This document shows, piece after piece, positions 33,318 through 50,416 of a stretch of 50,417 nucleotides of DNA. The position numbers and the translations under genes are program-made. Within the stretch, counting starts at the first letter, position 1. Each line of letters opens with the position of its first letter. The notes beneath the pieces are model-generated. The model was not told the origin of the DNA, made no database searches, and saw nothing but the letters and a program-made list of their open reading frames with translations. Source of the stretch: Lysobacter sp. A03. Lineage in GTDB: Bacteria > Pseudomonadota > Gammaproteobacteria > Xanthomonadales > Xanthomonadaceae. The stretch is from positions 1 through 50,417 of the forward strand of contig NZ_JXSS01000049.1 in assembly GCF_000855665.1 (NCBI RefSeq), given 5' to 3'.

Positions 33318-34233
33318 AATGCGTTTTCGTATTTTTGCGGAGCGGCAATTCAAGCGCTCTGATTGACGCAATTTCGCCCTCAAGACGTTCCTTCTGAATG
33401 TTCTCTAGTTGCACGGGAACACGGCGGGCACGGATAACATCCAGCCGACCGAGGCTGTCAAGAACGCCGACGGCAACGGACCTTGCGCTGCTGGCTGCAA
33501 ACGCAGCAGCCCTATCCACGAAGCGAAACCGGGATCCAGCGTCGCGCAAGATCGTCTGACGGCCGATGTGATAGGCACGCAGGAGCTTCCCAGCGTTCAC
33601 GCTTCCATCCTCCCGATAGTAGTACATCGGCTCAGGGACGAATGCCACGCGCAGATCATTTCGTGAATATGCGCGGACCCAGAGATTGGTGTCCTGTGAG
33701 ATGGGGAGGTCTTGCCGGTAACTATTTCGATCAAACCAAGCTTTGCGACCAATTACCGACGCATGCACGATACCGGAGTGCCCCCCCAGCAACGCGCGAG
33801 GCAGTATTGAATGACCGGGAGCCACGCAACGCACACCCACAGGTTCATAGTCGTCAGTCAACGAGAGCACACCTGTGGACACAAGGTCCACATCGGGGTT
33901 GGCGACCAGCACCTCCAACTGTCGCGCGAGGCGAGTAGGCGCCATCAAATCATCGGCGTCCATCCGCGCGATATATTCGGTTCTAACCAAGTACCGCAAT
34001 TCGTTGAGTCGCGTAGCAAGGCGCTTATTCTTCCCATCCGAGTACACCCTTACCCGTGGATCGTCGATCGATAGGGCGAGTTCCAGTGAACGATCGGTAG
34101 ATCCGTCATCCAACAGTATCAACTCCCAGCTGACGTGGGTCTGGGCAAAAACTGAGCGAACTGCGTCTAGCAAAGTACTCTCAGCGTTGAAGAATGGAAT
34201 ACCAATGGAGATCGGGGGCCCGTCAGTGATCAT
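33307..34233 (-). CDS. GT2 glycosyltransferase
   Basis: A 308-aa inverting GT-A enzyme. ISIGIPFFNAESTLLDAVRS and LILLDDGSTDRSLE are the nucleotide-binding strands, DADD (ARMDADDLMAP) is the metal motif, and the acceptor half contains HSGIVHASVIGRKAWF and a QDTNLW aspartate as candidate base. No C-terminal TM helix is present, so it is soluble or peripheral. ATG 34233 lies within the last codons of the polymerase gene, which it overlaps by 11 nt. The C-terminus is variable and the sugar it transfers is unknown. Confidence 0.9.
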   Translation of the reverse strand: MITDGPPISIGIPFFNAESTLLDAVRSVFAQTHVSWELILLDDGSTDRSLELALSIDDPRVRVYSDGKNKRLATRLNELRYLVRTEYIARMDADDLMAPTRLARQLEVLVANPDVDLVSTGVLSLTDDYEPVGVRCVAPGHSILPRALLGGHSGIVHASVIGRKAWFDRNSYRQDLPISQDTNLWVRAYSRNDLRVAFVPEPMYYYREDGSVNAGKLLRAYHIGRQTILRDAGSRFRFVDRAAAFAASSARSVAVGVLDSLGRLDVIRARRVPVQLENIQKERLEGEIASIRALELPLRKNTKTHYVS

Positions 34234-35287
34234 TGAACATACCGGCACTGGCCCTATATGGGACGAGGTTGCTGAATGCGCTCGTCGTCAAAACATAGAA
34301 GGAAATGGTGACCGCCAAGAATCCCAAAGCCATAACACCTCGAAGCGGCGTATTCCTGAACTGCCCGAACACCATCGGCCACATAACAATGGCCGTGGAA
34401 CTGAAGTAGAGGTGTAGACGCAGCAGTCCTGATGGATTCACGCTAGAAATAGTAGAGGCAAGAGCGAGCACAAGTCCTATCAAATAGATGTTTAATAGTC
34501 GCACATAGTTAGGATCACGCACCGCGGTCTTGAACATGTAGAGCATAACGCCCTGACAGACTAGGAATATGACCCAAATTTGCCCCCCACCCTCGCCCTG
34601 CTCTGCGTATGCTGCGTACTTGTCATCGAGAACGCTTGCTGCAAATCCAACGAATACTTGAAGAAACAGCACTACGATGACTGTCGCGAGAGCCAATGCT
34701 AACACCCGCTTCCAACCAGCACGGTCGGATGCAAGATAATAAAGTGGCGCCGCAATGAGAGCTGTCTGATGAAAAGTGGCCCCGAGGGCAACCAGCGTAA
34801 AGTAGGCCGCAGCCCTCCTTTCCAGCAGAAACGGGATTGCCATGAAGCAGATAGCAGCTGCAATTCCCTGCCGCGCACCATTGAAAAAAAATGTATAAAT
34901 GCCGATCGCGATAAATAGGAAGATCGCAGTCTCGTAACGGCGCGTCAACTTGATGATCGTGGAAACATAACAGATGACGACGATCGCAGCGATCATCAAC
35001 AGCATTACGTTGTATGAATCAGATATCGACCGTGCCACCCAGGTCAGCAAGTTGAACCCAAACTCGGTTCTTCGTTCCATCGCCGCGGAAAATGACTCGC
35101 TGCGCATGAATTGCCTCACGTAATTCCCAGTATCTGTTCCAACCCGGAAGTCACGAAGCCCTGCAAATAATGTAAGGATCAGGCCTACGACAAGCAGACT
35201 GACTTTCCTCAGAATTGAGTGGCCCGAACGCCGCCCAAAATACGCGGTAGTCACCACGGCGACAAGTAACAGAAGATACGGAATCAT
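34223..35287 (-). CDS. EpsG-family polysaccharide polymerase (Wzy)
   Basis: A 354-aa integral membrane protein with about ten TM helices. The early loop FAGLRDFRVGTDTGNYVRQF matches the EpsG/Wzy family signature (G-R-D-VG-DT-NY), and the NGARQGIAAAICF loop is the second conserved site. It would polymerise flipped repeat units on the periplasmic side. Codon use is clearly AT-richer here (many ATA, TTA, AAA codons) than in the flanking conserved genes, as expected for a serotype-specific polymerase. It is translationally linked to the GT4 upstream (4-nt overlap). Confidence 0.85.
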   Translation of the reverse strand: MIPYLLLLVAVVTTAYFGRRSGHSILRKVSLLVVGLILTLFAGLRDFRVGTDTGNYVRQFMRSESFSAAMERRTEFGFNLLTWVARSISDSYNVMLLMIAAIVVICYVSTIIKLTRRYETAIFLFIAIGIYTFFFNGARQGIAAAICFMAIPFLLERRAAAYFTLVALGATFHQTALIAAPLYYLASDRAGWKRVLALALATVIVVLFLQVFVGFAASVLDDKYAAYAEQGEGGGQIWVIFLVCQGVMLYMFKTAVRDPNYVRLLNIYLIGLVLALASTISSVNPSGLLRLHLYFSSTAIVMWPMVFGQFRNTPLRGVMALGFLAVTISFYVLTTSAFSNLVPYRASAGMFNDH

Positions 35288-36426: not shown

Positions 36427-37403
36427 GCTCCTACTCCAACGCAGCGGGAAGCGGCCAACCGCGCAGCCTTTAGCGAGAGCACCCATGCCCGGTCGGGCAT
36501 CTTGGCGAGCTCTAGCAGAAAGCGTGCACGGGTGAGTCCCACGACTGGAAAGCCGAGCTCCGCAATGCTTTTCGCGTACTGCCCCAAGTGTGCCTTCAAC
36601 TCTGTAGCAAGCGACATATCAATATTTCGTGCTACCGAGACTATTGCGTTCGCCGAACCAAACACGAAACTCTCCCGAAATTCGTCGGCAACACCTTCAC
36701 GACAGAGTAGTTTTGCGATATAGAGCTTCGCCTGAAACAGGTCAAACAGCACACGGCCACCGCCCCTCGTCGCCGAATCAGGTGAAAGCCGATGTTCATA
36801 AACCGGACTTTCTGAAAATGTGATACGTAATGTCCTGGAAAGAAATAAATCCACAAACAGAGCCTGATCCTCGGCGTACCTTATCTCGTCTGGGAACCGA
36901 ATGGCCCCAAGTGCAGAGCGCTTGACCAGCTTGTTCCACAGCGCGCTATGATTGCGTCCATCCAAGATGGATTGAAGCAGCGCTTTGGCCGAAGCAGCTC
37001 GCACAGCGTGCACAACGCGCGCATCAGCGCCACTTACAACAAGGTAATCGCCAACAACCAGATCGGCACCACTGTCATTACCCGCATTGACCAACGCCTC
37101 CAAGCCATGAGCAGGAACAACATCGTCCGCATCAGCGAATGCCAGATAGGTGCCTCGCGCAACGTCCAACCCCGCATTCCGAGCGGCGGAAACGCCTCCG
37201 TTTATCTGGCCGATGTAAACAACCCTCCGATCAGACACCGCATATCGCCTGCATATTTCGGCGGTGTTATCGGTAGATCCATCGTCGATAACGACAATCT
37301 CGAGATCAACAAGCGTTTGACTGATTAGACTGTCAAGACAAGCAGCTAAGTCCTCCCCGCCATTGAAGACCGGGACGATGACCGAAACCGTGGGCGAATT
37401 CAC
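36423..37403 (-). CDS. GT2 glycosyltransferase
   Basis: A 326-aa inverting GT-A enzyme. It has SVIVPVFNGGEDLAACLDSL, IVVIDDGSTDNTAEIC, GGVSAARNAGLDVARG and the metal-binding FADADDVV in canonical order in the first 110 residues. A YAEDQALF motif supplies the likely catalytic base. The C-terminal 90 residues are helical and variable. Overlaps of 4 nt with genes on both sides put it in the middle of the coupled glycosyltransferase series. Its sugar specificity is not readable from sequence. Confidence 0.92.
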   Translation of the reverse strand: MNSPTVSVIVPVFNGGEDLAACLDSLISQTLVDLEIVVIDDGSTDNTAEICRRYAVSDRRVVYIGQINGGVSAARNAGLDVARGTYLAFADADDVVPAHGLEALVNAGNDSGADLVVGDYLVVSGADARVVHAVRAASAKALLQSILDGRNHSALWNKLVKRSALGAIRFPDEIRYAEDQALFVDLFLSRTLRITFSESPVYEHRLSPDSATRGGGRVLFDLFQAKLYIAKLLCREGVADEFRESFVFGSANAIVSVARNIDMSLATELKAHLGQYAKSIAELGFPVVGLTRARFLLELAKMPDRAWVLSLKAARLAASRCVGVGA

Positions 37404-38542
37404 GACTCAGGGTCCGGCATCAGTGCAGTCCGAAGGAATTCTAGAGCACTCTGCTTCTCTTCTGCGCGAATGCTGTTCACCCTCTTCCAGTCGATTGACG
37501 CGAGCGCCTTGGCATCCACTTCGTCAAGTGAGGAGAACAATCTGTCGGTCAACCCATAGCGGCTCAAGAGCGACTCAAACCGGGCCTTCCCACGCTCGAC
37601 ATTCACCACCGCAATGAAGGGTCGGTTGTATATCAGTGAAAAAACACAGCCATGGAACGAATCCGTAATGACGAACTGGCAGTCGCTAAAGCCCCTCAAC
37701 CATGCTTCCACCGGTGGGAACACATGCTTGTCGCGATCGTGCCGAAAACTCGGTCCAAAGGGCTTTGGCATGACGTTAAATGCAGTACCGCCCAGGCTAT
37801 CAACCAGTGTGGCAAGCGCAGTCGTGCCGTCCGAATCCGAATCAAGCACGTAAGTGAAGATGCGTCCGGCACATTTCACGTAGCTCTGAGGAGTCTCCGC
37901 CAACCGGCGATAGTGATCAGCATCAAAAAGCAGTGTGGGATCGCAGACGCGCGATGAGTTGACACCCAGCTCGCGGCCCAAGAGCTCGACGGCGCTGTCC
38001 TCGCGGACTGAGACGGCGCTAAACTTCTTCAGGCTGCCAGCGAACAGCTCGCTTTCAGCTGGGTCGAAGCGCCAGTCATCCACACCCAGCGATGCTGCAT
38101 AGCTGATCCTTCGTGGCGTATCCCCTGGGAGCGCAAGAAAATAGGTTTGAAGGTCGGGCATGTACTCGCGACGCCAAACCTGGTCGCTCCCAACAATGAT
38201 GGCGTCGAATATACCCGACATGTCCTCCATGACGCGATCAATCTCGATATGTGAGGTCCTCGGCTGGATCTTTTCCAGGACAAAGGCACGCGTATTTCGT
38301 GATATCTCGGCCAACTCGAGTTGATCCGGGTACCACGGTGCCCTGCGACCGTCACGAGCGATCCGCCTCAAGCTACGCTTCAGGCGACTTGCGCCCAGAG
38401 CAATGCGCCCCACGGCTGGTCGGCGCACATCGAGAAGCACCGCTTCGTGACCTAGATCTGCGACGGCCTGTCGAAGCGCATACGCCTGCAAAATTCCGCC
38501 GTAGTTATGCCACAGGGGGAGTGTCAGGATGCCGACTTTCAT
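37400..38542 (-). CDS. Polysaccharide pyruvyl transferase family protein
   Basis: A 380-aa GT-B-like protein of the PF04230 type. Features are MKVGILTLPLWHNYGGILQA at the N-terminus (the NYGG loop), AIIVGSDQVWRREYMPDL, VREDSAVELL and QFVITDSFHGCVFSLIYNRP. The latter two blocks are the family signatures. It would add a ketal pyruvate from PEP to a sugar of the repeat unit, giving negative charge. Some members of the family act as other transferases, so the reaction is inferred. It overlaps the GH88/105-like gene and the GT2 gene by 4 nt each. Confidence 0.88.
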   Translation of the reverse strand: MKVGILTLPLWHNYGGILQAYALRQAVADLGHEAVLLDVRRPAVGRIALGASRLKRSLRRIARDGRRAPWYPDQLELAEISRNTRAFVLEKIQPRTSHIEIDRVMEDMSGIFDAIIVGSDQVWRREYMPDLQTYFLALPGDTPRRISYAASLGVDDWRFDPAESELFAGSLKKFSAVSVREDSAVELLGRELGVNSSRVCDPTLLFDADHYRRLAETPQSYVKCAGRIFTYVLDSDSDGTTALATLVDSLGGTAFNVMPKPFGPSFRHDRDKHVFPPVEAWLRGFSDCQFVITDSFHGCVFSLIYNRPFIAVVNVERGKARFESLLSRYGLTDRLFSSLDEVDAKALASIDWKRVNSIRAEEKQSALEFLRTALMPDPES

Positions 38543-39693
38543 CGCGGCATCCCCGCAAAAAGCGAGAGCATGAGACCTTGACTGAGCTCAGACGGGCCCT
38601 TCATGCGGGAATACTTGTTGATATAGATTGTATCTCCCGTCGCCTGCACAACCCGTCCGACCCGATCTACGCACACTGCGGCGAGCGCCGCAATCGCGGC
38701 TGCATCCATGTCCAGAGTTCCGCACCGCTGGAAGGCGTGCAGGAACATAAGCGTGCTAGAGGAGTCTATCTGCCGATCATTGGTATGGCCCAGGAACTGC
38801 GGCCAGAAGCCGTACGGCTCACGCAGGTCGCGCAGGATAGATTCATATCGGCGCATGGCACTCGTCAATGTCGGATCACCACTTTCCCGCGCTACCTCCG
38901 ACAGCCCCAACAGCAGCCAGCCCGTGCCCCGCGCCCAGTTCACCGAGCCCAGCAGCTGCTTACGCTCCAGGTCGTACGCGTGGACAGCCAAGCCATCGCC
39001 CGGCGCAACACAGCGGTCGAGTGCGAACTCAACTTGAACCTTTGCGTCCAGCATCGCCGAAGGATCACCTGCAATCTTTGCGTACTGCACAAGGAAAGGA
39101 CAGAGCAGCCCCACAGCGTCGATAAAGAATACGTCAATACCCGAGCGGTACCGGTACAATCCGTCGTTCCCCTTGAAGGCCTGCATCTTTTTATGTACAT
39201 CACGAGCGCCAGCCAGGTAGCTGTCCTTGCGGGTCAGCTTGTACAATCTCAAAAAAACGAGGCCGAAGGTGGCCTGATCGAGCTTGTCGACAGAAAACTT
39301 CAACTCGCCGGACTCATCGAGTAGTTCCTTGCACTTGTGCTCAACGCGCTTGAGTACATTGCCATCGCCTGTTGCGGAAGAATGGTCTAGAAGCCCCAAC
39401 AGGAGAAATGCTAGAGGGAAGTTGTAATAGGCGTAGGCATGGCTCGTGCGCTTCGCCAGCATGCGTTTTTTTAGGCCCGCCAATAACGCATATAGGCTTT
39501 CATCGTCATTAAAGGACATCGACACGCGCCGCGAAGAAAGCATAGTTTCTGCAGCGGATATAACCGCTCTTTGCACTGCTGGCGAATCCCTTACCCCGAG
39601 CATCGACGTGCGCTGACGTCTCTTACGGCGGATGACTGGGTAAGCCACGAGAAGAAACTGGATAGCAACCACCAAGATTAAAAATGAAACCAC
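38539..39693 (-). CDS. Membrane-anchored GH88/GH105-like six-hairpin protein
   Basis: A protein of about 384 aa with one N-terminal TM helix (VSFLILVVAIQFLLVAYPVI), then a basic stop-transfer and a helical (alpha/alpha)6-like domain. GSVNWARGTGWLLLGLSEV resembles the RGNGW motif of unsaturated glucuronyl/rhamnogalacturonyl hydrolases, and DVFFIDAVGLLCPFL resembles their active-site aspartate strand. GTG 39693 is chosen because AAGGA sits 6 nt upstream and the start is followed directly by the TM; TTG 39765 would overlap wzx. The domain should face the periplasm. It could trim the polymer or bind a uronic acid unit made by the UDP-sugar dehydrogenase. Assignment is by motif memory only. Confidence 0.6.
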   Translation of the reverse strand: MVSFLILVVAIQFLLVAYPVIRRKRRQRTSMLGVRDSPAVQRAVISAAETMLSSRRVSMSFNDDESLYALLAGLKKRMLAKRTSHAYAYYNFPLAFLLLGLLDHSSATGDGNVLKRVEHKCKELLDESGELKFSVDKLDQATFGLVFLRLYKLTRKDSYLAGARDVHKKMQAFKGNDGLYRYRSGIDVFFIDAVGLLCPFLVQYAKIAGDPSAMLDAKVQVEFALDRCVAPGDGLAVHAYDLERKQLLGSVNWARGTGWLLLGLSEVARESGDPTLTSAMRRYESILRDLREPYGFWPQFLGHTNDRQIDSSSTLMFLHAFQRCGTLDMDAAAIAALAAVCVDRVGRVVQATGDTIYINKYSRMKGPSELSQGLMLSLFAGMPR

Positions 39694-39740
39694 AGTCAAT
39701 CCTTTACAATACCTTGAACCAAGCCACTTCAAGAATCGGC

Positions 39741-41042
39741 TCAGCCCAGATCGTGAGCGCGCCAAAGAACAAATAAAAGCAAACTTAAGTATCCAATAAC
39801 ATTGACAACAGAAAAGGCAGCTATAGCCACAAGGTCATTGCCCATATAAGAACCGATAAGTATCACAGTCACTCGCGCCGCTGTAATAAGAACCTCATAT
39901 GCAAGCAGGACATGTTGCAGTCGGAGTACAGGCATAGTGGCCACTGCTGGCCTCGAAACCAATACGCTCGCCATCCATATCGCAATCCATTGCGAATACT
40001 CTCCCGCCCTTGCCCAACGATCACCGAAGGCGAGAGGAAAAAGACTATCTCCCCAGATCGCGATAGCTCCGAACGGGACTATCGCGACCAACCCCATCAA
40101 TATGCTGGCCCGCTTCAATAGATAGGATGCATGCACTGGATTCTCACGGATAGCCATGGTGATCTTAGGAAAGAACACCTCCCCTACCGAGTCCCCCAGA
40201 AGCATGACAGGAGCACTCAGAACTAACACCGTAATGGAGTACTGCCCCGCTGTTCCTGCGTTGAACAACGCAGTCAAAACTATGACTGGAAATCCGATGG
40301 AGGCGGCTCGAATTGCGCTCTGCGGCATTCGGTATAGCGCGAAATCCCGCTGCTCTCTTGCCGCGTCTCGTATACCTCCCGTTCCGAACCAGCGCCTCAC
40401 CAAGAAGGCACCCTTTCGTGGTACCAACCAGAGCAGCATGAAATAGTTGAGAGCGTTTCCCACTAGCGAGATGACAATTAACGCCAATCCGGAAGGCGCA
40501 AGCAGACCACCAGCAAGCTTGCCGATATTCATCAGCAACGTGCTGGATGCGTGAGAAGTTGCCTTCGCCTTGAACAGCCCCTCACGGATCGCAGTTTGGT
40601 TGGCCACCGATAGAAACGCGCCCAACAGAAGCGATATTGGAATCAGGTAGAGAAAGCCGGGCGTTGCGTCTAGGCCCGTCCATCTGGCCAAGTGAGTCTG
40701 GAACAGGAATACGAAGACTAGGGCGAGCAGCGCTGCAACAGCCGCGCACACCATCGAGAGCCGGGCAACAGCCGTGGCGCCCTCCTCCGTCTGCGGCATA
40801 ACGATGGCATTGGCGTAGCCTAGCGTGGACAGCGGGGTGATGATGTTGACCACCGCGGTGAACGCCGCCAGCGCGCCGAACGCCTCGGGGCCATAGAGCC
40901 GCGTGAGAAACGGCATGAACGCTAGGGAGATGGCTTGGGCAGCTGCGATCCCGGTTGCCACGGCGGCAACGTTGCGCAAGAACTGGCTCTTAGTGAGCGC
41001 TTGAGCGTGGCCACGCAGCCGGGTAAAAGCTTCACCGGTCAT
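39741..41042 (-). CDS. Wzx-type flippase (MOP superfamily)
   Basis: A 433-aa protein with about 12 TM helices. It begins MTGEAFTRLRGHAQALTKS and has the family pattern AQAISLAFMPFLTRLYGPEAFG at helix 1-2, with TAVVNIITPLSTLGYANAIV next. It flips undecaprenyl-linked repeat units to the periplasm. ATG 41042 overlaps the galE stop (ATGA); a frame extension to 41192 lies inside galE and is rejected. It marks the right edge of the AT-richer variable cassette. Its 3' end is 47 nt from the next gene start. Confidence 0.9.
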   Translation of the reverse strand: MTGEAFTRLRGHAQALTKSQFLRNVAAVATGIAAAQAISLAFMPFLTRLYGPEAFGALAAFTAVVNIITPLSTLGYANAIVMPQTEEGATAVARLSMVCAAVAALLALVFVFLFQTHLARWTGLDATPGFLYLIPISLLLGAFLSVANQTAIREGLFKAKATSHASSTLLMNIGKLAGGLLAPSGLALIVISLVGNALNYFMLLWLVPRKGAFLVRRWFGTGGIRDAAREQRDFALYRMPQSAIRAASIGFPVIVLTALFNAGTAGQYSITVLVLSAPVMLLGDSVGEVFFPKITMAIRENPVHASYLLKRASILMGLVAIVPFGAIAIWGDSLFPLAFGDRWARAGEYSQWIAIWMASVLVSRPAVATMPVLRLQHVLLAYEVLITAARVTVILIGSYMGNDLVAIAAFSVVNVIGYLSLLLFVLWRAHDLG

Positions 41043-43349: not shown

Positions 43350-43363
<14 letters not shown>

Positions 43364-44726
43364 GGGGGCCTTCCGCAATGGCAGTGGTGAACGCTTGGTG
43401 GTTGTCGGCGAGGAGCACCCGCGCCAACAACAACGCGAACACGACGCTGACCGTCAGTGTCCGCAAGGGATAGTCGACAAGGCCATGCGCCACCGGAACC
43501 GTGATGGCGATCGCAGCCGCAACCGGCAATTTTACGCCATCGGGACGGCTGATGAGGCCCCTGCGCACGGCCAGCAACAACAGGGCCAGGAACGCCGCGA
43601 TCAGCGCCAAGCCGACCAGTCCAGTCTCTAGCGCGATTTCCACCAATTCGTTGTGGGCGTGCAGCGCGTAGTTGTTGATCATCGCGTCGATGGGTTCAAA
43701 CGGTGCGTAGGTGTCACGGAATGTTCCCAGACCGCTCCCCCACGGCAGATAGCCTTTGATGGCGGTCCAGCCATGGGCGATGTAGTCCCAGCGCCGGTCA
43801 CCCAGCGGATCCTTGTCGAAGCGATCGATGATGCGGCTCCACGCGTAGTTGGCGACCGCTACGCCGGCAACCAGCAGGGTCAGGGCCATGCCGGCATGCC
43901 GCCGCGGCCAGGACGTGGCCGCTCCGTTGGCGGAGAGCAGCAGCATGGCACCGGTAGCGGCGGCAGCGACCGCCGCCAGCAGCACACCGGTTCGGGAGAA
44001 GGTCATCGCGGCACCCAGCAACAGCAGCACCACCGTGGCGTACCACGCAAACGCGGCGGGCTTGTGGTGTGCGCGCTGCGCGCCATGCGCCAATACCATC
44101 GCCACAGGCAGCAGCATCGCCAACATCGACGCAAAGTGGTTGCGGTTGGCGAACAGCGCGGTGGCGGTCCCGGTGTTTTGGAACGCGTGCACGTGCAGGT
44201 CAACGCGGTTGCCGCCCGCCACCTGGGCGAACCCGAGCAGCACCATGGGCACGGCGAGAATTGCGGCAAGCGCCAGCAGACGATCAAGGACGCGCGTTGG
44301 CAATGTGCAGCACAGCAGCCACATCGCTAGGGTCGAGGCAATCGCCAGCAGGGCCCGCGCGGTGGCCCAGGGGTCGAGGCTCATCGGCAGCCAGGCCGAG
44401 TGCATGCCGGCAGCGGCCAGGTCGGCCAGGACCTCGTGCCGCAGCGGCAAGGCACCGATCCAGCTGGCGGGCAGTGGCAACAATTGCAGCAGTGCCACGC
44501 CAATCGCCGCCAGGAACAGATAAAGGAACGCACGCTGCAGCCCGGTGGCATCGTGGCGGCGCCAACGCATCACCCCCAGCCAAAGCGCAGGCACGGCAAA
44601 AAGATGCACCACCGCATCGCCCGTCCCGCGCGAGCCACCACCAAAAATCATCGCAACCACCAGCAGCGTTGCCGCTACAGCGCCGGCGATGAGATCAGGC
44701 GTCAGCGCGACGCCCTTGTTCCGCAT
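43350..44726 (-). CDS. O-antigen ligase / Wzy-like membrane protein
   Basis: A 458-aa protein with about 11-12 TM helices and the large periplasmic loop of the PF04932 family (GSGLGTFRDTYAPFEPIDAM). NHFASMLAMLLPVAMVL and YALHAHNELVEIALETGLVG are family blocks, and the HNE motif is typical. It could ligate or polymerise the repeat unit. Because the operon also has an EpsG-type polymerase, one of the two is probably Wzy and the other a ligase or a second polymerase. ATG 44726 follows AGGAG. A terminator stands 42 nt upstream, separating it from the small secreted-protein gene. Confidence 0.88.
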
Positions 44727-44768
44727 TTACACGCACTCCTGGTTCTTGCCCACAACTAGTGCTTGCCC

Positions 44769-44798
44769 ACAAAAGAAACCGGCCGCAAATGCGGCCGG
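44769..44798 (-). terminator. Intrinsic terminator after the small secreted gene 44824-45186
   Basis: On the minus strand CCGGCCGC-ATTT-GCGGCCGG (44779-44798), a perfect 8-bp GC stem, is followed by TTTCTTTTGT. It starts 26 nt after the stop of the small gene, inside the EPS operon. Confidence 0.88.
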
Positions 44799-44823
44799 AA
44801 ACCTCTGCCCGATTTTCCAGCGC

Positions 44824-45186
44824 TTAGGGGCTGGAGGGCGGGTCTTTCTTACTGCTGCTACTGCCGCCGCCCGCTGCAACGGCGACGACGATCAGGCCGC
44901 CGGCGGCCGCGGCAAGAACGCCCGGGGACACGGTCGGAGACACTTTGGCAACGCGAACTCCATCGGGCGTCTGCATGACGGGCTGGCCGGTGGCGGGGTC
45001 GATCACGGGTTCACCGGTCGCCGGGTCGATGACCGGCTGCAGCGAGGACTCCTCAACCAGGAACTGGGATTCGTCGTCCTGCTGGACTGGCGTGGCGGCC
45101 TGCTCGGCCGGCAACGGCTCCGGGGACTGCGCGAACGCGCTGCCAAATGCGAACGTGGCGGCAAACGCCAACAACAAATGCTTCAT
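44824..45186 (-). CDS. Small secreted protein ending in PSSP, function unknown
   Basis: A 120-aa protein. ATG 45186 follows GGGAGC and opens a 20-residue signal peptide (MKHLLLAFAATFAFGSAFAQ). A middle region holds two tandem copies of VIDPATG(E/Q)P. Near the C-terminus come a Gly/Ala/Val hydrophobic helix (VLAAAAGGLIVVAVAAGGG), a Ser/Lys stretch and the end KKDPPSSP. The tripartite C-terminus (hydrophobic helix, polar tail) resembles a sorting or anchoring signal. The second small protein of this operon ends in the same way. It has its own predicted promoter and a strong terminator, so it is probably expressed as a single gene. I do not recognise a named family. Confidence 0.82.
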   Translation of the reverse strand: MKHLLLAFAATFAFGSAFAQSPEPLPAEQAATPVQQDDESQFLVEESSLQPVIDPATGEPVIDPATGQPVMQTPDGVRVAKVSPTVSPGVLAAAAGGLIVVAVAAGGGSSSSKKDPPSSP

Positions 45187-45236
45187 GTAGAGCTCCCTGG
45201 ACGAATTACCCGTCAAATACCGACGTGGCGCACTGC

Positions 45237-45265
45237 AGCATAAAGGTCGGTCGTGCGCTGGGCAA
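45237..45265 (-). promoter_or_regulatory. Predicted promoter of the small secreted gene
   Basis: On the minus strand TTGCCC (45260-45265) and TATGCT (45237-45242) are 17 nt apart, giving a leader of about 45 nt before ATG 45186. With the terminator at 44769-44798 this makes a self-contained transcription unit of about 0.45 kb. Confidence 0.5.
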
Positions 45266-45279
45266 GCGTAGAGTGACGA

Positions 45280-46542
45280 CTAATCGCTAATCGGGACTAT
45301 CTTAATATCGTCGACATACACCGTTCCGCGTATCTGCCGCTCGGCCGCATTGCGACCGGTATGTCGCAGCACCAGTCGCTGGGCAGGGCACGACGCGGTG
45401 ACACTAAAGGATGCCTCGGCGATCTGCCATCCAGGCGATTGCGGCAGTGGCAGCTCCGCGATAGGCGTTTTGGTGCTGTCGCACGCCAACTGCAAGACAA
45501 ATGGGCGCGAGCTTCCGGTCCGATTATCGGCGGAGGCGCTCAGTCGATAAGTGCCTGCCGGCAGCGCCAGGCTCTGTTGCAGGTTCGCGAACTGCACTGC
45601 CCGACCATGGAAGGTGATGGCCAATGAGTGGTCGCCGCTATGCGGGTTACTGGTATCCGCGCCGATGGCGAGGCCCGCCGCAGGGCGTATCTGCCACCCG
45701 TAGCCACCGTGGACTTCGGGATGCTCGAAACCGCCATCAAACACAAGCCCGGCGGTGTGTGTCGCCGGGTCAAGGCTTGCGAGCCAGGCTTCGCGAGCCT
45801 GATGCGGCTGTCCCGCACGGCCCAGCAATGCAACGCGTGTCTCCAACTCATCGTCTGTCAGGGGCTGCCGCTTTGCCAGCTCGTCGAGAAAGGCCAGCGC
45901 TGGCCTTGCTGGTGCGTCGTCCGAGCGCAGGGCGCGAATCAGCGCCGCGCGCCACGGCGGATCCACCGCCATGCGATCGATCAATGCAGAGCGGAACTCG
46001 GGGAACTGCAACAACCCGACCATTTCGGTGAACATCGCCGGGCGGATATCGGGAGCCACACGCAGCAATGCATCCAGATGCATGACGGCGGCCGCGCTGT
46101 CGTTGTCGGCAAAGGCGCGCTGGGCGAGAAGCGCCTGTGCCATCCGGTCCCGCGGCCAGCGCTCGGCGGCGATACCCAGCAAATCGCCCGCGCGGGCGTC
46201 GTTCCCTTCTTCCATCGCCACCTGACCGAGTACCCGGTAGGCACGCCCGTCGATCGGACGGGTTGCCAGTGCCTTGCGCGCGTTTGTCGCCGCATGGTCG
46301 GGAAGCCCGCCTGATGGGTCCGAGTCATCGAGCGCCTTGATCAGGCGGTCCGGCCCGTAAGCCTGTCCCAGCGACCCGTCCACGCGGGCGAGTTGCACGG
46401 CCAACACGGCCAGGAGCGCGGCTGCACCGGTCGCCAATACAAGACGGATGGCGCCAACACGCGGCAAAGCAAAGGGGCCTTGCGGCCCCTTGGCTGACAC
46501 CTTCAACCGGCCCGGGTTACGGGCTGGACGGAAGGTCGTCAC
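45280..46542 (-). CDS. Membrane protein with TPR-like repeats and a carbohydrate-binding-like C-terminus
   Basis: A 420-aa protein. An N-terminal TM helix (LVLATGAAALLAVLAVQLARV) is followed by TPR-like helices (AYRVLGQVAMEEGNDARAGDLLGIAAERWP and similar) to about residue 260. The C-terminal beta-sandwich opens with LVFDGGFEHPEVHGGYGW and has GDHSLAITFHG and LPAGTYRLSASADNR. This resembles sugar-binding jelly-roll modules. The start is uncertain: GTG 46542 overlaps the upstream gene, while a terminator hairpin (46472-46491) lies inside the first 25 codons. TTG starts after the hairpin (about 46467 or 46436) are possible. The domains suggest a periplasmic scaffold that touches the polymer. Confidence 0.78.
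   Translation of the reverse strand: MTTFRPARNPGRLKVSAKGPQGPFALPRVGAIRLVLATGAAALLAVLAVQLARVDGSLGQAYGPDRLIKALDDSDPSGGLPDHAATNARKALATRPIDGRAYRVLGQVAMEEGNDARAGDLLGIAAERWPRDRMAQALLAQRAFADNDSAAAVMHLDALLRVAPDIRPAMFTEMVGLLQFPEFRSALIDRMAVDPPWRAALIRALRSDDAPARPALAFLDELAKRQPLTDDELETRVALLGRAGQPHQAREAWLASLDPATHTAGLVFDGGFEHPEVHGGYGWQIRPAAGLAIGADTSNPHSGDHSLAITFHGRAVQFANLQQSLALPAGTYRLSASADNRTGSSRPFVLQLACDSTKTPIAELPLPQSPGWQIAEASFSVTASCPAQRLVLRHTGRNAAERQIRGTVYVDDIKIVPISD
46462..46491 (-). terminator. Terminator-like hairpin after the small secreted gene 46517-46774
   Basis: On the minus strand AAGGGGCC-GCAA-GGCCCCTT (46472-46491) is a perfect 8-bp stem, followed by TTTGCTTTGCC. It begins 26 nt after the small gene's stop, the same distance as the terminator behind the second small gene. 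It could act as a partial terminator or attenuator for the operon below. Confidence 0.65.
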
Positions 46543-46774
46543 TCGAGTCGTTCACGTTATGCAGAATCACGGCGCCGAGTGCAACGCTGCCCGCGATCCA
46601 CAGGGTCTTCTTGGCGGCTTCGGCCTTGGCGTTCGCGCTGGCTGCCGAAGTTGCAGAGACCGGCATGGCGGGCGGTGCGTCGCTGGTTGCAGTGTCAGCA
46701 GGCGCGGTGGCCTGGGCGAAAGCGGAGGCGCTGGCGACCATGGCGACAGCGGCAAAAATCCATTTGAAACTCAT
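46517..46774 (-). CDS. Small secreted protein ending in PSSP, function unknown
   Basis: An 85-aa protein. ATG 46774 follows AGGAGC and opens a signal peptide (MSFKWIFAAVAMVASASAFAQ). A Thr/Ala/Ser/Pro-rich, probably disordered middle of about 35 residues leads to a basic patch (AEAAKK) and a hydrophobic helix (TLWIAGSVALGAVILHNV). The C-terminus is NDSSDDLPSSP. The layout and last four residues match the second small protein about 1.3 kb downstream, though the rest is not alignable. It sits between the Wzc-type kinase gene (77 nt upstream) and the TPR protein gene, and is followed by a hairpin terminator. No known family recognised. Confidence 0.8.
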   Translation of the reverse strand: MSFKWIFAAVAMVASASAFAQATAPADTATSDAPPAMPVSATSAASANAKAEAAKKTLWIAGSVALGAVILHNVNDSSDDLPSSP

Positions 46775-46851
46775 ACGGTGCTCCTGTGGGGGATATCAAA
46801 ATCTGTTGTCAGCGTAGCAGGACGATGTGTGCGAGGCGTCACTGTCTTCCG

Positions 46852-49029
46852 TCACTTGGTCGCGTCGCCGGAACCGTAGCTGTAATAGCTGTAACCGTAG
46901 CCATCGCCCTTGCGCTGGTGGTCAAAGCCGGTAAGCAGCGTGCCCAGGACGTGGGCGCGCACGCTGACCAGCCGGTCCAGCGCAACCTGCAGCGCATCGT
47001 TGCGGGTCTTCTCGGCGGACACCACCAGCAGGGTCGCCTCGACCCGGTTTGCCAGCAGCGGTGCGTCGGCCAGGCCCAGTACGGGCGGGCCATCGAGCAC
47101 GACGACGTCGAAGTCCGCACGCAGCGATTCCAGCAAGGTCGTCAGACCGTCGCCGGCCAACAGTTCCGGCGGGCTGGGCGGCAGCGGGCCGGAGGTGATC
47201 ACCGACAGCGTGCTGCCAGCAAGGGGCTGCACCGCGGCTTCGGCCTGGGCCGCGCCTGCGAGCACGCTGGACAGGCCCACGCTGTTGGAAAGGTTCATCA
47301 GGCGGTGGATGGAGGGATTGCGCAGGTCGGCATCCACCAGCACCACCCGCTTGCCGAGCTGGGCGATGTTGCGGGCCAGTTCCATCGCGGTGGTGGACTT
47401 GCCTTCGGTTGCACTGGCGCTGGTAACCAGCAGGCTGTGCGGCAGACCGTGCGGGGTAGCAAACTGCAACGCCGTGCGCAGCGACCGGTATGCCTCGGCA
47501 AATGGCGAGCGGGCATCCGCCGCGGCCTGTGCCGGCGTGGTGCCGTCGGCCAGCCGCGGGATGACGCCCAGCACCGGCCGCGGGATCAACGCGCGGAGCA
47601 CGTCCGGCGTCTTCACCGTGCGATCCAGGACGTGCAGCACGAACGCCGCCAGCACGCCCAGGAACCCACCCAGCAACAGGCCGATCGCCAGGTTCAGTGC
47701 CAGCCGCGGCGAGTGGCGGCCGCCGGGAACGAGCGCCGGATCAATCACCGAGATGTTGTTGGCCCCCACACCGCCGGCGACACCGATCTCCTTGTAGCGC
47801 TGCAGCAGCGCGTCGTAGATCTGGCGGTTGGTGTCGGCCTCGCGGCGCAGGATGTTGTACTGGATGCTGCGGCCTTCCAGGTCAAGCACGTCGCCGCGCA
47901 GGCTGTCGAGCTGGTCGCGCAACAGGGATTCCTGGCGGACGGCAGCGTCGTAGTCGGCCTTGATCGAGGCGCGGATGTTGGCGATCTCGGTTGCAATCTG
48001 GCTGTCGAGCTCCCTGATCTGGCCCTGCAGGCGGACCATGTCGGGGTAGTCCGGCTTGTAGACGCCCAGGTTCTGCTGGTACTCGGCGGCCAGGCCGGCG
48101 CGCTGCTGGCGCAGCCCCTGGATCATCGCGTTGCTCACCACCTGCGGCAATCCCAGACCGTTACCGGTACTGGCATTGTTCAAGCGCGACTCGGCCTTGA
48201 TGCGCTCGTCCTGAACCTTGGACAGGCTCGCGTTGAGCTGGGACAGGTTCTGCGCCGACAGTGAGGGCGTGCCCTCGCCCACCGACACGATCTGCTCGCG
48301 TTCGGAGAACTGGACCAGTTCCTTTTCCGAGTCCTCCAGTCGCGCCTTCAACTGCGCCAGGCGCTCTTCCAGATACTTGGTGGCATACGTGGAGGCGTCG
48401 AAGCGGCGTTCCAGGTTGCTGGCGATGAAGCCTTCGGCGTAGGCATTGGCGACACGAGCGGCCAGTTGGGGGTCGGGCGAGTCGAAACTGACCTTGACCA
48501 GCCGCGAGTTGCGTACCGGTTCGATCGTGAGTCCTCCCATGACCGTTCCCACAATTGCCCGCTCGCGCGCCTGCTGGGCCGCGGCCGGAGCCGCGTCGGC
48601 GCCGCTCTTCTCAGCCAGGCGCTCGTTGACCTTCTCGATGGTCTTGGCGAATTGCGGGCTCTCGACCAGGTTCAGGTCCTGGATGACGCGCTGGGCGAGC
48701 GAGCGGCTTTGCAGCAGTTCGTACTGGGTCTGGTAGAAATCGCGATCCTGGGTCGACTCCGGGGATAAGCCCTCGAAGCTGGTCACGTTCATGGTGTCGC
48801 GTTCGATCTGGATGGTGGTCGCCGCGCGGTAGATCGGGGTCGCGAGCAGCGTGATTACCAGCGTCAGCAGGACCACTGCGCCGATCACGCCCAACACCAG
48901 CCACTGGCGCTCGCGCAGGATCTGCCAGTACGCCAGCAGATCGATCTCGTCATCGTCCGGGCGCGCGGGTGAAGCGATATCCAGCGCGCGCATGTCTTCG
49001 GCTGCGGCGCCTTCGTATCGCGTACTCAC
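46852..49029 (-). CDS. Wzc/GumC-type polysaccharide co-polymerase and tyrosine kinase (BY-kinase)
   Basis: A 725-aa inner-membrane protein that controls chain length and export. It has an N-terminal Wzz domain with TM helices at about 43-63 and 440-465 enclosing a coiled-coil-rich periplasmic part. The C-terminal kinase has Walker A SASATEGKSTTA (about 540), Walker A' VVLVDADLRNP and Walker B VVLDGPPVLGLAD. A tail with five tyrosines (YGYSYYSY) is the autophosphorylation cluster. The start is GTG 49029, set by GGAGGG 8 nt upstream and by GTGA overlap with the wza-like stop; ATG 49044 is less likely. It is paired with the CpsB-type phosphatase at the window end. Confidence 0.95.
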   Translation of the reverse strand: MSTRYEGAAAEDMRALDIASPARPDDDEIDLLAYWQILRERQWLVLGVIGAVVLLTLVITLLATPIYRAATTIQIERDTMNVTSFEGLSPESTQDRDFYQTQYELLQSRSLAQRVIQDLNLVESPQFAKTIEKVNERLAEKSGADAAPAAAQQARERAIVGTVMGGLTIEPVRNSRLVKVSFDSPDPQLAARVANAYAEGFIASNLERRFDASTYATKYLEERLAQLKARLEDSEKELVQFSEREQIVSVGEGTPSLSAQNLSQLNASLSKVQDERIKAESRLNNASTGNGLGLPQVVSNAMIQGLRQQRAGLAAEYQQNLGVYKPDYPDMVRLQGQIRELDSQIATEIANIRASIKADYDAAVRQESLLRDQLDSLRGDVLDLEGRSIQYNILRREADTNRQIYDALLQRYKEIGVAGGVGANNISVIDPALVPGGRHSPRLALNLAIGLLLGGFLGVLAAFVLHVLDRTVKTPDVLRALIPRPVLGVIPRLADGTTPAQAAADARSPFAEAYRSLRTALQFATPHGLPHSLLVTSASATEGKSTTAMELARNIAQLGKRVVLVDADLRNPSIHRLMNLSNSVGLSSVLAGAAQAEAAVQPLAGSTLSVITSGPLPPSPPELLAGDGLTTLLESLRADFDVVVLDGPPVLGLADAPLLANRVEATLLVVSAEKTRNDALQVALDRLVSVRAHVLGTLLTGFDHQRKGDGYGYSYYSYGSGDATK

Positions 49030-49736
49030 TTGAAGACCCTCCATACAGCGACAAGCGGCACCAGCCTGATCAGGTTCTGCAGGAAGACCTTGCCGGTGGA
49101 GGTGTCCACGACGACGATGTCCTCGCCCTGCAGGACCGGGTCGTCCAGCTGCCCGTCGATGATCTGGTCAACGTCGAAGCGGGCGAAGTGGCGCACGCCC
49201 CCCACGGTGCGGAACACCAGCACATTTTCGTGGCTGGCGACCTCGTCCATGCCCTCCGCCAGAGCCAGCGCCTGCAGCAAGGTGACCTGCGACGCGATCG
49301 GATAGATGCCGGGCTTTTCCACCGAGCCGCTGACGGTGACGCGCTGGCTGGAGAACTCCTTGACGAAGATCGTTACCTGCGGGTTCTGCAGGTAGGTGGC
49401 GGCATAGCGACGGGCGACGTCGGCCTCCATCTCGGTCACGGTCATGCCGGCGACATCGATGACGCCGATCAGTGGCAGGGAGACCTGGCCGGAGTTGTTG
49501 ACCCGGACCTCGCGGTCCAGATCCGCGACCTGGAACACGGTAACGGTCAGCAGGTCGCTGGGCCCGATCCGGTACTCCGGGCGGCCAACGGCCTCGGCCA
49601 CCGGGTCGCCCTGGGGAAGCACCGTCACCGCACCGCTGGGGGCCGGACCGCGGCTGGCGCATGCAGAAAGCAGCAAGGCGCATGCGAGCGCCACGAATCG
49701 TGTCAGGTTGGGCAAAACGAGGGTTCCCCGGGACAT
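49026..49736 (-). CDS. Polysaccharide export outer-membrane lipoprotein (Wza/GumB family)
   Basis: A 236-aa lipoprotein. The lipobox is ALLLSACAS with the acylated cysteine at residue 26. The Poly_export domain starts at EYRIGPSDLLTVTVFQVADL, and a SLBB segment follows (VTVSGSVEKPGIYPI). It lacks the long C-terminal amphipathic helix of E. coli Wza, as GumB does. It forms the outer-membrane or periplasmic part of the export channel and works with the Wzc-type protein encoded directly downstream (4-nt overlap). The gene is 32 nt downstream of the phosphatase gene. Confidence 0.95.
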   Translation of the reverse strand: MSRGTLVLPNLTRFVALACALLLSACASRGPAPSGAVTVLPQGDPVAEAVGRPEYRIGPSDLLTVTVFQVADLDREVRVNNSGQVSLPLIGVIDVAGMTVTEMEADVARRYAATYLQNPQVTIFVKEFSSQRVTVSGSVEKPGIYPIASQVTLLQALALAEGMDEVASHENVLVFRTVGGVRHFARFDVDQIIDGQLDDPVLQGEDIVVVDTSTGKVFLQNLIRLVPLVAVWRVFK

Positions 49737-49768: not shown

Positions 49769-50416
49769 TTATGCCCGACTAGACCGCAGCCCGCGCAAAA
49801 AACGCGCCAGCGCGGAACCCGAACGCGGCGCGTCGTGGCTGGCGGGGGTGAAGCCGGGAGTCGCGAACAGCGGCGGCGGCAGCAGTTCCGGCGCGGTGTT
49901 GGCAATGATGCCAGCCGGCCGGGTGCGCACCATGTGCCCTGCCTCATCAGCGCCGACCAGCGCTGCAGCGGCCTCGCGCGCTTCGGCCAGCAACGGCGGG
50001 CGACGCTGCGGATGGTGCGCATCGGTGGCCAGCACCATGCAATGGCCGTCGCCGACAAAACGCTCGCCCCAGTACTTGACCCGGCGGCCGAAGCGGCCGG
50101 TCAGTGCGCCGGCGGTGATCTGCATCCACGCGCCGCGGCGGCTGATGCGCTCGAACACCTCGTATTGATCCTCGACCCAGCTCAGACGCTCGGGGTGCGT
50201 GATCAGAACGGTGTAACCGGCCGTCATCAGCTCGAACACCGACTCCTCGAAGCGCGGCGGGGCGACGTGATGGGACGGCTCCAGCAGCATGTAGCGCGAG
50301 CCGCCAATGGTCGGCACCCTGCCCTCGCGCAGGCCGTCCAGCAGGCCCGGAACCAGGGGCACGTCCGCATTGGCCTGCAGGCGCAGCGGGGTGTCGCGCA
50401 GGTCGAGCCCGGCTTG
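49769..50416 (-). CDS. CpsB/CapC-type tyrosine-protein phosphatase, PHP family (5' end outside window)
   Basis: The frame stays open to the right edge, so the N-terminal metal-binding HxH part lies outside the window and GTG 50362 is not the start. Visible parts are YMLLEPSHHVAPPRFEE, GYTVLITHPERLSW with the conserved HPER metal site, and MVLATDAHHP with the last PHP ligand pair (DxH). The enzyme removes phosphate from the Wzc-type kinase tail, which resets polymer assembly. It is the first visible gene of the operon. The C-terminal 50 residues are proline- and arginine-rich and not conserved. Confidence 0.9.
   Translation of the reverse strand, partial: QAGLDLRDTPLRLQANADVPLVPGLLDGLREGRVPTIGGSRYMLLEPSHHVAPPRFEESVFELMTAGYTVLITHPERLSWVEDQYEVFERISRRGAWMQITAGALTGRFGRRVKYWGERFVGDGHCMVLATDAHHPQRRPPLLAEAREAAAALVGADEAGHMVRTRPAGIIANTAPELLPPPLFATPGFTPASHDAPRSGSALARFLRGLRSSRA

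Follow-up and report, generated by a model that had tools for sequence, protein, structure and literature searches.

A serine-containing C-terminal tail on small secreted proteins of exopolysaccharide loci and its co-occurrence with a Wzy_C-family gene

An exopolysaccharide (EPS) gene cluster of Lysobacter sp. A03 raises the question of why two small secreted proteins should end in the same residues. The window analysed here is the whole stretch from positions 1 to 50,417 of contig NZ_JXSS01000049.1 (50,417 nucleotides; assembly GCF_000855665.1), and the two proteins, of 85 and 120 amino acids (aa), terminate in DLPSSP and DPPSSP, respectively. The first-pass annotation had described a shared PSSP tag located after a hydrophobic helix and had suggested a new anchoring or export tag for small EPS proteins. 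A C-terminal tag after the helix was indeed found, but PSSP is only the local form that it takes in Lysobacter; the wider pattern is P-x-S-[P/R], and the strict PSSP definition was abandoned as too narrow. The gene that co-occurs best with this tail encodes a ligase-like membrane protein of the Wzy_C family, and the data are better accounted for by an acceptor tag than by one for anchoring or export.

The tail and its carriers

Both window proteins carry a signal peptide that appears by eye to be of the signal peptidase I type (...SASAFA-Q and ...FGSAFA-Q, respectively), a single hydrophobic segment close to the C-terminus, and the PSSP end, and their coordinates and tails were correct as first described. 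They are not alignable overall, as had been claimed; the only alignment was a short signal-peptide stretch (BLASTP E 1.6). When used as a single query against 119 genomes, the 120-aa protein retrieved the sister genome and a few weak matches. This sister, Lysobacter antarcticus (locus L046; Wzc 91% identical), is the closest named relative among the loci, and its version of the 85-aa protein has 97 aa, a changed middle, and the tail ...DDRPSSP. A PSSP end was found in one of 949 background gene calls, and that open reading frame (ORF) was located on the strand opposite to the cluster. A hidden Markov model (HMM) of the tail trained without the window and L046 recovered both window proteins (E 0.006 and 0.038), the first non-family frame appearing at E 0.22 among 14,173 frames.

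Eighty further loci were fetched by Wzc, giving 81 sources together with the window. A tail regular expression combined with crude signal-peptide and helix filters yielded 47 ORFs in 36 of the 81 sources, and after removal by eye of seven that were antisense or unrelated, we retained 40 proteins from 33 sources, a set that was selected on the tail. The typical architecture of these relatives comprised a signal peptide, a beta domain, a linker, the helix, and a tail rich in Gly, Asp, Asn, and Pro. A beta-domain HMM, built from this N-terminal domain alone, was trained on 26 tail-selected proteins. It added eight complete proteins, none of them fused, that the tail expression or the filters had missed; six of these end in SP or SPx and two in LSGx. 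The 82 non-redundant C-termini retrieved with this HMM included 27 that were tail-selected (26 of them used for training) and 55 that were not.

The tail was conserved in these 55 proteins as well: P-x-S was located near the end in 36, compared with 28 of 952 background genes under the same rule, and an S[P/R] end was present in 31, compared with 20 of 949. The latter end was also observed in 33 of the 54 complete beta-domain proteins (against the same 20 of 949) from 65 loci retrieved with the tetratricopeptide-repeat (TPR) and carbohydrate-binding-module (CBM) protein that is encoded between the two small window genes. A looser motif rule matched 52 of the 55, always at a Ser, the residue that the scoring of this rule prefers. 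Other forms of the tail were PVSP, PVSR, PASP, PISR, and, in several members of genus g51, GPLS..IRHF. The motif Ser (Thr in one protein) was followed by one residue in 50 of 79 cases and by at least two in the remainder, and among the 76 serine codons that were located, 69 were AGY and 7 were TCN.

In 60 genomes, including that of strain A03, the tail profile gave seven matches at E<1e-4, all at EPS loci and two of them in A03, which means that the tail is not a general, genome-wide sorting tag. The next match in A03 (C88, E 0.043) was rejected as a third tail gene, its C-terminus being without the motif. Each locus had one to three carriers, with two copies in 9 of the 65 loci by profile and three in L057. 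As the first-pass annotation had anticipated, the tail recurs at other EPS loci and on differing carriers, in company with one gene (see below). The two window proteins and six relatives gave no Pfam or NCBIfam match at or above a model's cut-off, and no description of the tag was found in open-access PMC full text (subscription papers fell outside this scope).

The window proteins are short forms without the beta domain. Several Lysobacter-type loci likewise lack this domain and keep the tail, short forms without a beta-domain match occur elsewhere (74-76 aa in another family and 83-84 aa in Sphingomonas-type loci), and in L056, L262, and L263 a short protein has a long neighbour with a similar tail. 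Within one genus, similar tail proteins of 74-76 aa end in DDD[KA]PTSP (L306 and L310) or in DDDSESD (L308, L309, and L311), a natural motif switch. In L094:10390-11902 and L105:10318-11914, the beta domain follows the TPR/CBM protein as a C-terminal fusion that lacks helix and tail; this natural fusion links the two genes and ties the long forms to the TPR/CBM protein. The AlphaFold model of the L083 protein was confident for the beta domain, low for the linker and helix, and at 66 for the last block; since only the beta domain was confident, the model says little on the helix and tail.

An 8-bp perfect GC hairpin is located 25 nt beyond the stop codon of each small window gene. The first-pass annotation had placed a hairpin terminator exactly 26 nt past each stop; both hairpins are present, but the terminator scan passed the one after the 120-aa gene and failed the one after the 85-aa gene. 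Within 45 nt of the stop, a perfect stem of 8 bp or longer was found behind 22 of the 40 tail genes, compared with 11 of 417 other called ORFs in the same loci. Inside an operon, a hairpin usually favours the upstream gene over those behind it in product yield, a pattern that would be in keeping with a structural subunit or with an acceptor that is consumed. One of the small genes had also been assigned its own promoter, which was not borne out, as a scan of 44500-47000 found no sigma-70-like promoter, although promoters of Lysobacter sp. A03 may differ.

Co-occurrence with Wzy_C

The 65 TPR/CBM loci come from 60 of the 79 family genomes and five of the six class genomes with a match, and their species overlap with those of the 80 Wzc-retrieved loci. 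A tail was found in 56 of the 65, comprising 47 detected by the beta-domain HMM, four by the tail HMM (L256, L275, L280, and L284), and five by eye (L259, L261, L264, L277, and L293); the search by eye covered 12 loci without a profile match, irrespective of Wzy_C. The fused L094 and L105 were excluded from the motif-rule and Wzy_C tail counts. All tail loci but L248, a cut contig, had Wzy_C (55 of 56), compared with two of the nine loci without a tail (Fisher 4e-7; 3e-6 after removal of the contig-cut loci L248, L260, and L276). Two of the seven loci with neither were cut contigs. In G823, G932, G833, G218, and G233, Wza, Wzc, and the TPR/CBM protein were present, and neither Wzy_C nor a tail was found within 8 to 20 kb on each side (one flank of G932 ended with the contig after 4.5 kb); these genomes belong to two genera, and other members of these genera carry both Wzy_C and the tail.

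Among the Wzc-retrieved loci, Wzy_C was present in 37 of the 39 with a tail, and the other two were short contigs. Within those that have the TPR/CBM protein, 36 had both tail and Wzy_C, two the tail only, nine Wzy_C only, and nine neither (p 2e-4), while the GumC-type loci had Wzy_C in 0 of 9 and no tail. Of the nine with Wzy_C only, one was fused and three (the Thiothrix loci L082, L092, and L097) carry unrelated secreted proteins beside Wzy_C, with no beta-domain HMM match listed and with the ends PTPTPTPVSRG (L092), PTPTPTPVSGG (L097), and KPAPVSGAA (L082). Those at L092:12890 and L097:12890 (minus strand) contain long Gly/Thr/Pro low-complexity stretches and are located on the opposite strand, directly behind Wzy_C. 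The stop-to-stop frames of tail and Wzy_C lay within 130 bp of each other in 23 of 36 loci.

The TPR/CBM protein was considered as a partner of the tail and was dropped because TPR/CBM loci without Wzy_C turned out to be without the tail as well; in the 80 Wzc loci, 39 had both tail and TPR/CBM, 17 TPR/CBM only (one of which, L043, in fact has a tail), one the tail only, and 23 neither. Wzy_C is thus the best co-occurring gene, tighter than TPR/CBM. The earlier expectation of a single co-occurring processing or assembly gene was right in that one gene co-occurs, but this is the Wzy_C ligase-like gene and not a protease. A search across the phylum with Wzy_C only found a relative in 93 of 398 genomes, and among the best 30 loci the first eight (E<1e-100; A03 is among them, and six belong to one family) each had a small secreted neighbour with helix and tail.

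The window Wzy_C protein matched the O-glycosylation ligase model TIGR03097 (3.5e-8) and TfpM (7.5e-4), in each case well short of the curated cut-off (for NCBIfam TfpM, 18.7 bits against 600). Up to E 0.01, the family profile matched two PDB sequences with the histidine motif aligned, namely 7tpg (E 3e-7), named as a polysaccharide polymerase/ligase and presumably WaaL, and 9rmk, named as an oligosaccharyltransferase. Among 36 Wzy_C members, one matched Wzy_EPS and two matched TfpM (E<=0.001), all at E 2e-4 or worse. In 14 of 50 genomes, a gene for an EpsG-family protein, a further polymerase candidate, lay no more than 20 kb from the TPR/CBM gene.

Possible functions of the tail

We tentatively read the tail as a C-terminal acceptor tag ('glycotag') for the Wzy_C-family ligase of the same cassette, a reading that we favour while stopping short of calling it probable. 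Arguments for it are the conservation of the tail in proteins not selected on it, the co-occurrence with Wzy_C, the lack of a tail in the five genomes without Wzy_C nearby and in the GumC-type loci, the helix-tail neighbours of the eight best Wzy_C loci, the PVS ends of the unrelated Thiothrix proteins, and the hairpins. In addition, the Wzy_C profile matches 7tpg and 9rmk, the window cluster holds a second polymerase candidate, and known protein-specific O-oligosaccharyltransferases modify substrates that are often encoded nearby at a C-terminal Ser or Thr. The small proteins would be exported by Sec, probably in excess over the enzymes, given the hairpin behind many tail genes. The Gly/Asp/Asn/Pro-rich tail would offer its conserved Ser, typically in P-x-S-[P/R], to the ligase, which would move a glycan (a repeat unit or an EPS chain) onto it, and the hydrophobic helix may retain the product in an oligomer or at a membrane, close to the sugar-binding TPR/CBM protein. 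According to a review, TfpO and TfpM modify their substrates, which are often encoded nearby, at a C-terminal Ser or Ser/Thr, and PglL sites of A. baumannii are disordered, Ala/Pro-rich, and near Asp/Glu (PMC12645811).

How Wzy-dependent exopolysaccharides stay on cells is largely an open question. A more far-reaching form of the proposal, which we consider possible and on the whole unlikely, is that the EPS of the cassette is covalently ligated via Wzy_C to the tail Ser of small, abundant secreted proteins, giving a protein-linked polymer anchored by the hydrophobic helix, with its own acceptor tag, across diverse Proteobacteria. An acceptor tag, in either form of the proposal, would explain the O-antigen-ligase-like gene in EPS loci, provide a substrate for many 'O-antigen ligase family' annotations in EPS clusters, and offer a short tag for glycoengineering. 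Chemistry aside, the tail proteins are an unnamed protein family and form, with Wzy_C, a two-gene module that can be searched by profile.

Several observations weigh against the acceptor reading, and the main gap is the topology of the tail. For 79% of the helices, the Kyte-Doolittle mean over a span of 19 residues is 1.6 or higher, and if they were true stop-transfer helices behind a cleaved signal peptide, the tail would be cytoplasmic, beyond a periplasmic ligase. The motif is also less uniform than the P-x-S-[P/R] form: the looser rule also fitted 326 of the 952 genes of the background (at a Ser in 214 and at a Thr in 112), 19 of the 55 proteins not selected on the tail lack Pro two residues before the Ser under that rule, and the close relatives in L308, L309, and L311 have no Pro motif, the DDDSESD end being that of three of the eight closest Wzy_C loci, which weighs against a strict motif. 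Tail and Wzy_C were not adjacent, lying 1-7 kb apart, in 13 of 36 loci, the more distant of the 30 best Wzy_C loci were mostly without a recognised tail, and so were G136 and G550 in the TPR/CBM set and L069 (a cut contig), L070, L089, L120, and L122 in the Wzc set. The p-values overstate independence because the loci are related by descent. Moreover, Wzy_C proteins include polymerases, as the one Wzy_EPS match among 36 indicates, and Wzy_C may be the polymerase in the 36 of 50 genomes in which the contig carries no EpsG gene up to 20 kb away.

Regarding topology, the helix appeared weak on an energy scale (median dG +1.25, 7% below 0, compared with -3.3 and -2.2 for two Wzc segments). The mean net charge after the helix was -1.24 over 92 C-termini, and the charge was lower after the helix than before it in 65 of them. 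Because the helix is weak and the tail acidic on average, the two together do not look like a classical membrane anchor, and these values only suggest that the tail is perhaps not cytoplasmic.

The co-occurrence with Wzy_C would equally be expected if the small protein bound the Wzy_C protein, be it polymerase or ligase, non-covalently as a subunit or regulator, with helix and tail docking to set activity or chain length. A helix combined with a conserved short linear motif would suit such a role, the Wzy_EPS match points the same way, and the L094/L105 fusion suggests that the beta domain acts in the periplasmic complex of the TPR/CBM protein; docking by itself, however, needs no Ser kept amid changing neighbours, no carriers without the beta domain, and no hairpin, and we regard this explanation as rather doubtful. 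A cytoplasmic role, with the helix as inner-membrane anchor of a periplasmic beta domain and the tail as a docking motif for a partner such as the Wzc kinase domain, would agree with the hydropathy reached by 79% of the helices. The nine GumC loci, in which the Wzc match ends before the kinase domain and the tail is absent, also fit, as do the fused beta domains of L094 and L105, which have no helix and tail, as if the anchor were redundant. It appears improbable given the on average acidic tail, the weak helix, the five genomes with Wzc and TPR/CBM and no tail, and the short forms, which keep the tail though they have no beta domain to anchor.

PEP-CTERM has been linked to EPS, and the tail resembles the PEP-CTERM/exosortase, LPXTG/sortase, and GlyGly-CTERM/rhombosortase tags in being a short C-terminal helix region on otherwise unrelated secreted proteins, here at EPS loci, so that an inverted PEP-CTERM or GlyGly-CTERM, cut by a dedicated protease, could be imagined. 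Known sorting tags consist of (PMC3237569) a motif, a helix, and then a basic cluster. The tail, in contrast, has its motif after the helix, as the first-pass annotation had pointed out, is negatively charged there on average, lacks a basic cluster, and occurs on one to three carriers per locus, with no further clear match in A03. No processing protease was seen among the cassette genes scanned (a scan that was not exhaustive), and exosortase was discarded as a partner, as PF09721 had 0 matches in the genome of A03 (sortase and rhombosortase were not searched for). The tail is not a PEP-CTERM- or LPXTG-like tag, and we give very little credence to a protease-cut sorting tag of any such kind.

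Least probable of all appears to be ordinary family similarity to the small secreted capsule proteins GfcA and YjbE of E. coli. These share the general plan of a small secreted protein with a late hydrophobic stretch and a polar tail, encoded in capsule or EPS operons (GfcA together with Wza- and Wzc-type genes), but they are Thr-rich and have no P-x-S motif. The tail HMM gave no match to them among the matches listed, up to E 4, and the hhalign probability against GfcA was 1.6%, so that no homology was detected. No GfcB/C/D (YjbF/G/H) homologues were found by phmmer at 1e-3 among the called genes of the 80 loci and the window, although gene calls were crude and remote homologues are possible. 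The function of gfcA is given as unknown in PMC8592465.

The window cluster and known systems

In the window, wza and wzc are followed on the minus strand by the 85-aa gene, the TPR/CBM gene, the 120-aa gene, and the Wzy_C gene (Table 1). The remainder of the cluster encodes a UDP-glucose dehydrogenase, a flippase-type protein, glycosyltransferases, and the pyruvyl transferase, GH88-family, and EpsG-family proteins listed. The CpsB/CapC-type protein is one that we take to belong to the PHP phosphatase family. The TPR/sugar-binding-like protein that had been noted between the two small genes is supported as a fold: its model comprises an N-terminal helix, a helical (TPR-like) superstructure, and a C-terminal beta domain, for which the top Foldseek matches were CBM4 and CBM16 modules (E about 1e-7). 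Translation of this protein probably begins 3' of the listed GTG, since the ORF as listed runs into protein 1 and the hairpin behind it.

Table 1. Positions of the tail genes, their hairpins, and other cluster genes in the window
Feature	Position	Strand	Remark
EpsG-family protein (PF14897)	34223..35287	-	Second polymerase candidate in window cluster
Polysaccharide pyruvyl transferase	37400-38542		Inside EPS cluster
GH88-family protein	38539-39765		Inside EPS cluster
Wzy_C / O-antigen-ligase-like membrane protein	43350..44726	-	Pfam PF04932 1.8e-17; proposed tail partner
GC hairpin terminator 3' of protein 2	44779..44798	-	Terminator scan and stem search
120-aa small secreted protein 2	44824..45186	-	Short form; tail ...GGGSSSSKKDPPSSP
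DPPSSP terminal codons, protein 2	44827..44844	-	
TPR and CBM4/16-like protein, N-terminal helix	45280..46542	-	Structure model mean pLDDT 88.6, Foldseek
GC hairpin 3' of protein 1	46472..46491	-	Weak T-run; inside 5' part of next listed ORF
85-aa small secreted protein 1	46517..46774	-	Short form without beta domain; tail ...NDSSDDLPSSP
DLPSSP terminal codons, protein 1	46520..46537	-	
Wzc-type co-polymerase with tyrosine-autokinase domain	46852..49044	-	Pfam/NCBIfam scans
Wza/OPX-type export protein, short	49026..49736	-	Poly_export and SLBB
CpsB/CapC-type protein	49769..50362	-	

Wza has an outer-membrane helix, and the short Wza-type protein of the window may be without one; no outer-membrane porin was found among the 16 other window genes scanned. 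In many cassettes, though not in the window, a J-domain protein is encoded between Wzc and the TPR/CBM gene. A relative was detected by phmmer in 25 of 41 Wzc-retrieved loci with a tail or fusion and in 38 of the 65 TPR/CBM loci, and the protein at L083:10160-11908 has a weak SnoaL-like match at its C-terminus. Such a chaperone-like component was unexpected in an EPS operon.

Regarding known systems, the beta domain of the long relatives is alike in fold to the cell-surface anchoring domain 5ix9, which we take to be of the LapA type and which was the sole Foldseek match of the L083 beta domain at E<=0.001 (E 7.7e-4, probability 1.00, target TM 0.76). The LapA-type retention module NF033682 matched four of six tail proteins scanned at E 1e-4 to 1e-3 without reaching its cut-off (19-22 bits against 50). 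The tail proteins, however, are small and without adhesin repeats, and the window proteins do not have this domain. The Wzy_C protein is related to 7tpg, presumably the O-antigen ligase WaaL, but the proposed acceptor here is a protein tail, not lipid A-core. The kind of system proposed here, a ligase with a dedicated acceptor, is already known. The pilin-specific O-oligosaccharyltransferases TfpO/PilO and TfpM are likewise Wzy_C/WaaL-like membrane enzymes with a dedicated secreted acceptor, often encoded nearby, and a Ser at or near its C-terminus (PMC12645811). The present pair has the Wzy_C/WaaL-like domain in the enzyme, below the cut-off of the TfpM model, and a dedicated secreted acceptor candidate close to it, as the Wzy_C count in the tail loci (55 of 56) illustrates. 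In contrast to TfpO and TfpM, the proposed acceptor is not a pilin, the locus is an EPS export cassette, and the Ser is usually penultimate, often within P-x-S-[P/R], so that the acceptor hydroxyl would not be on the very last residue.

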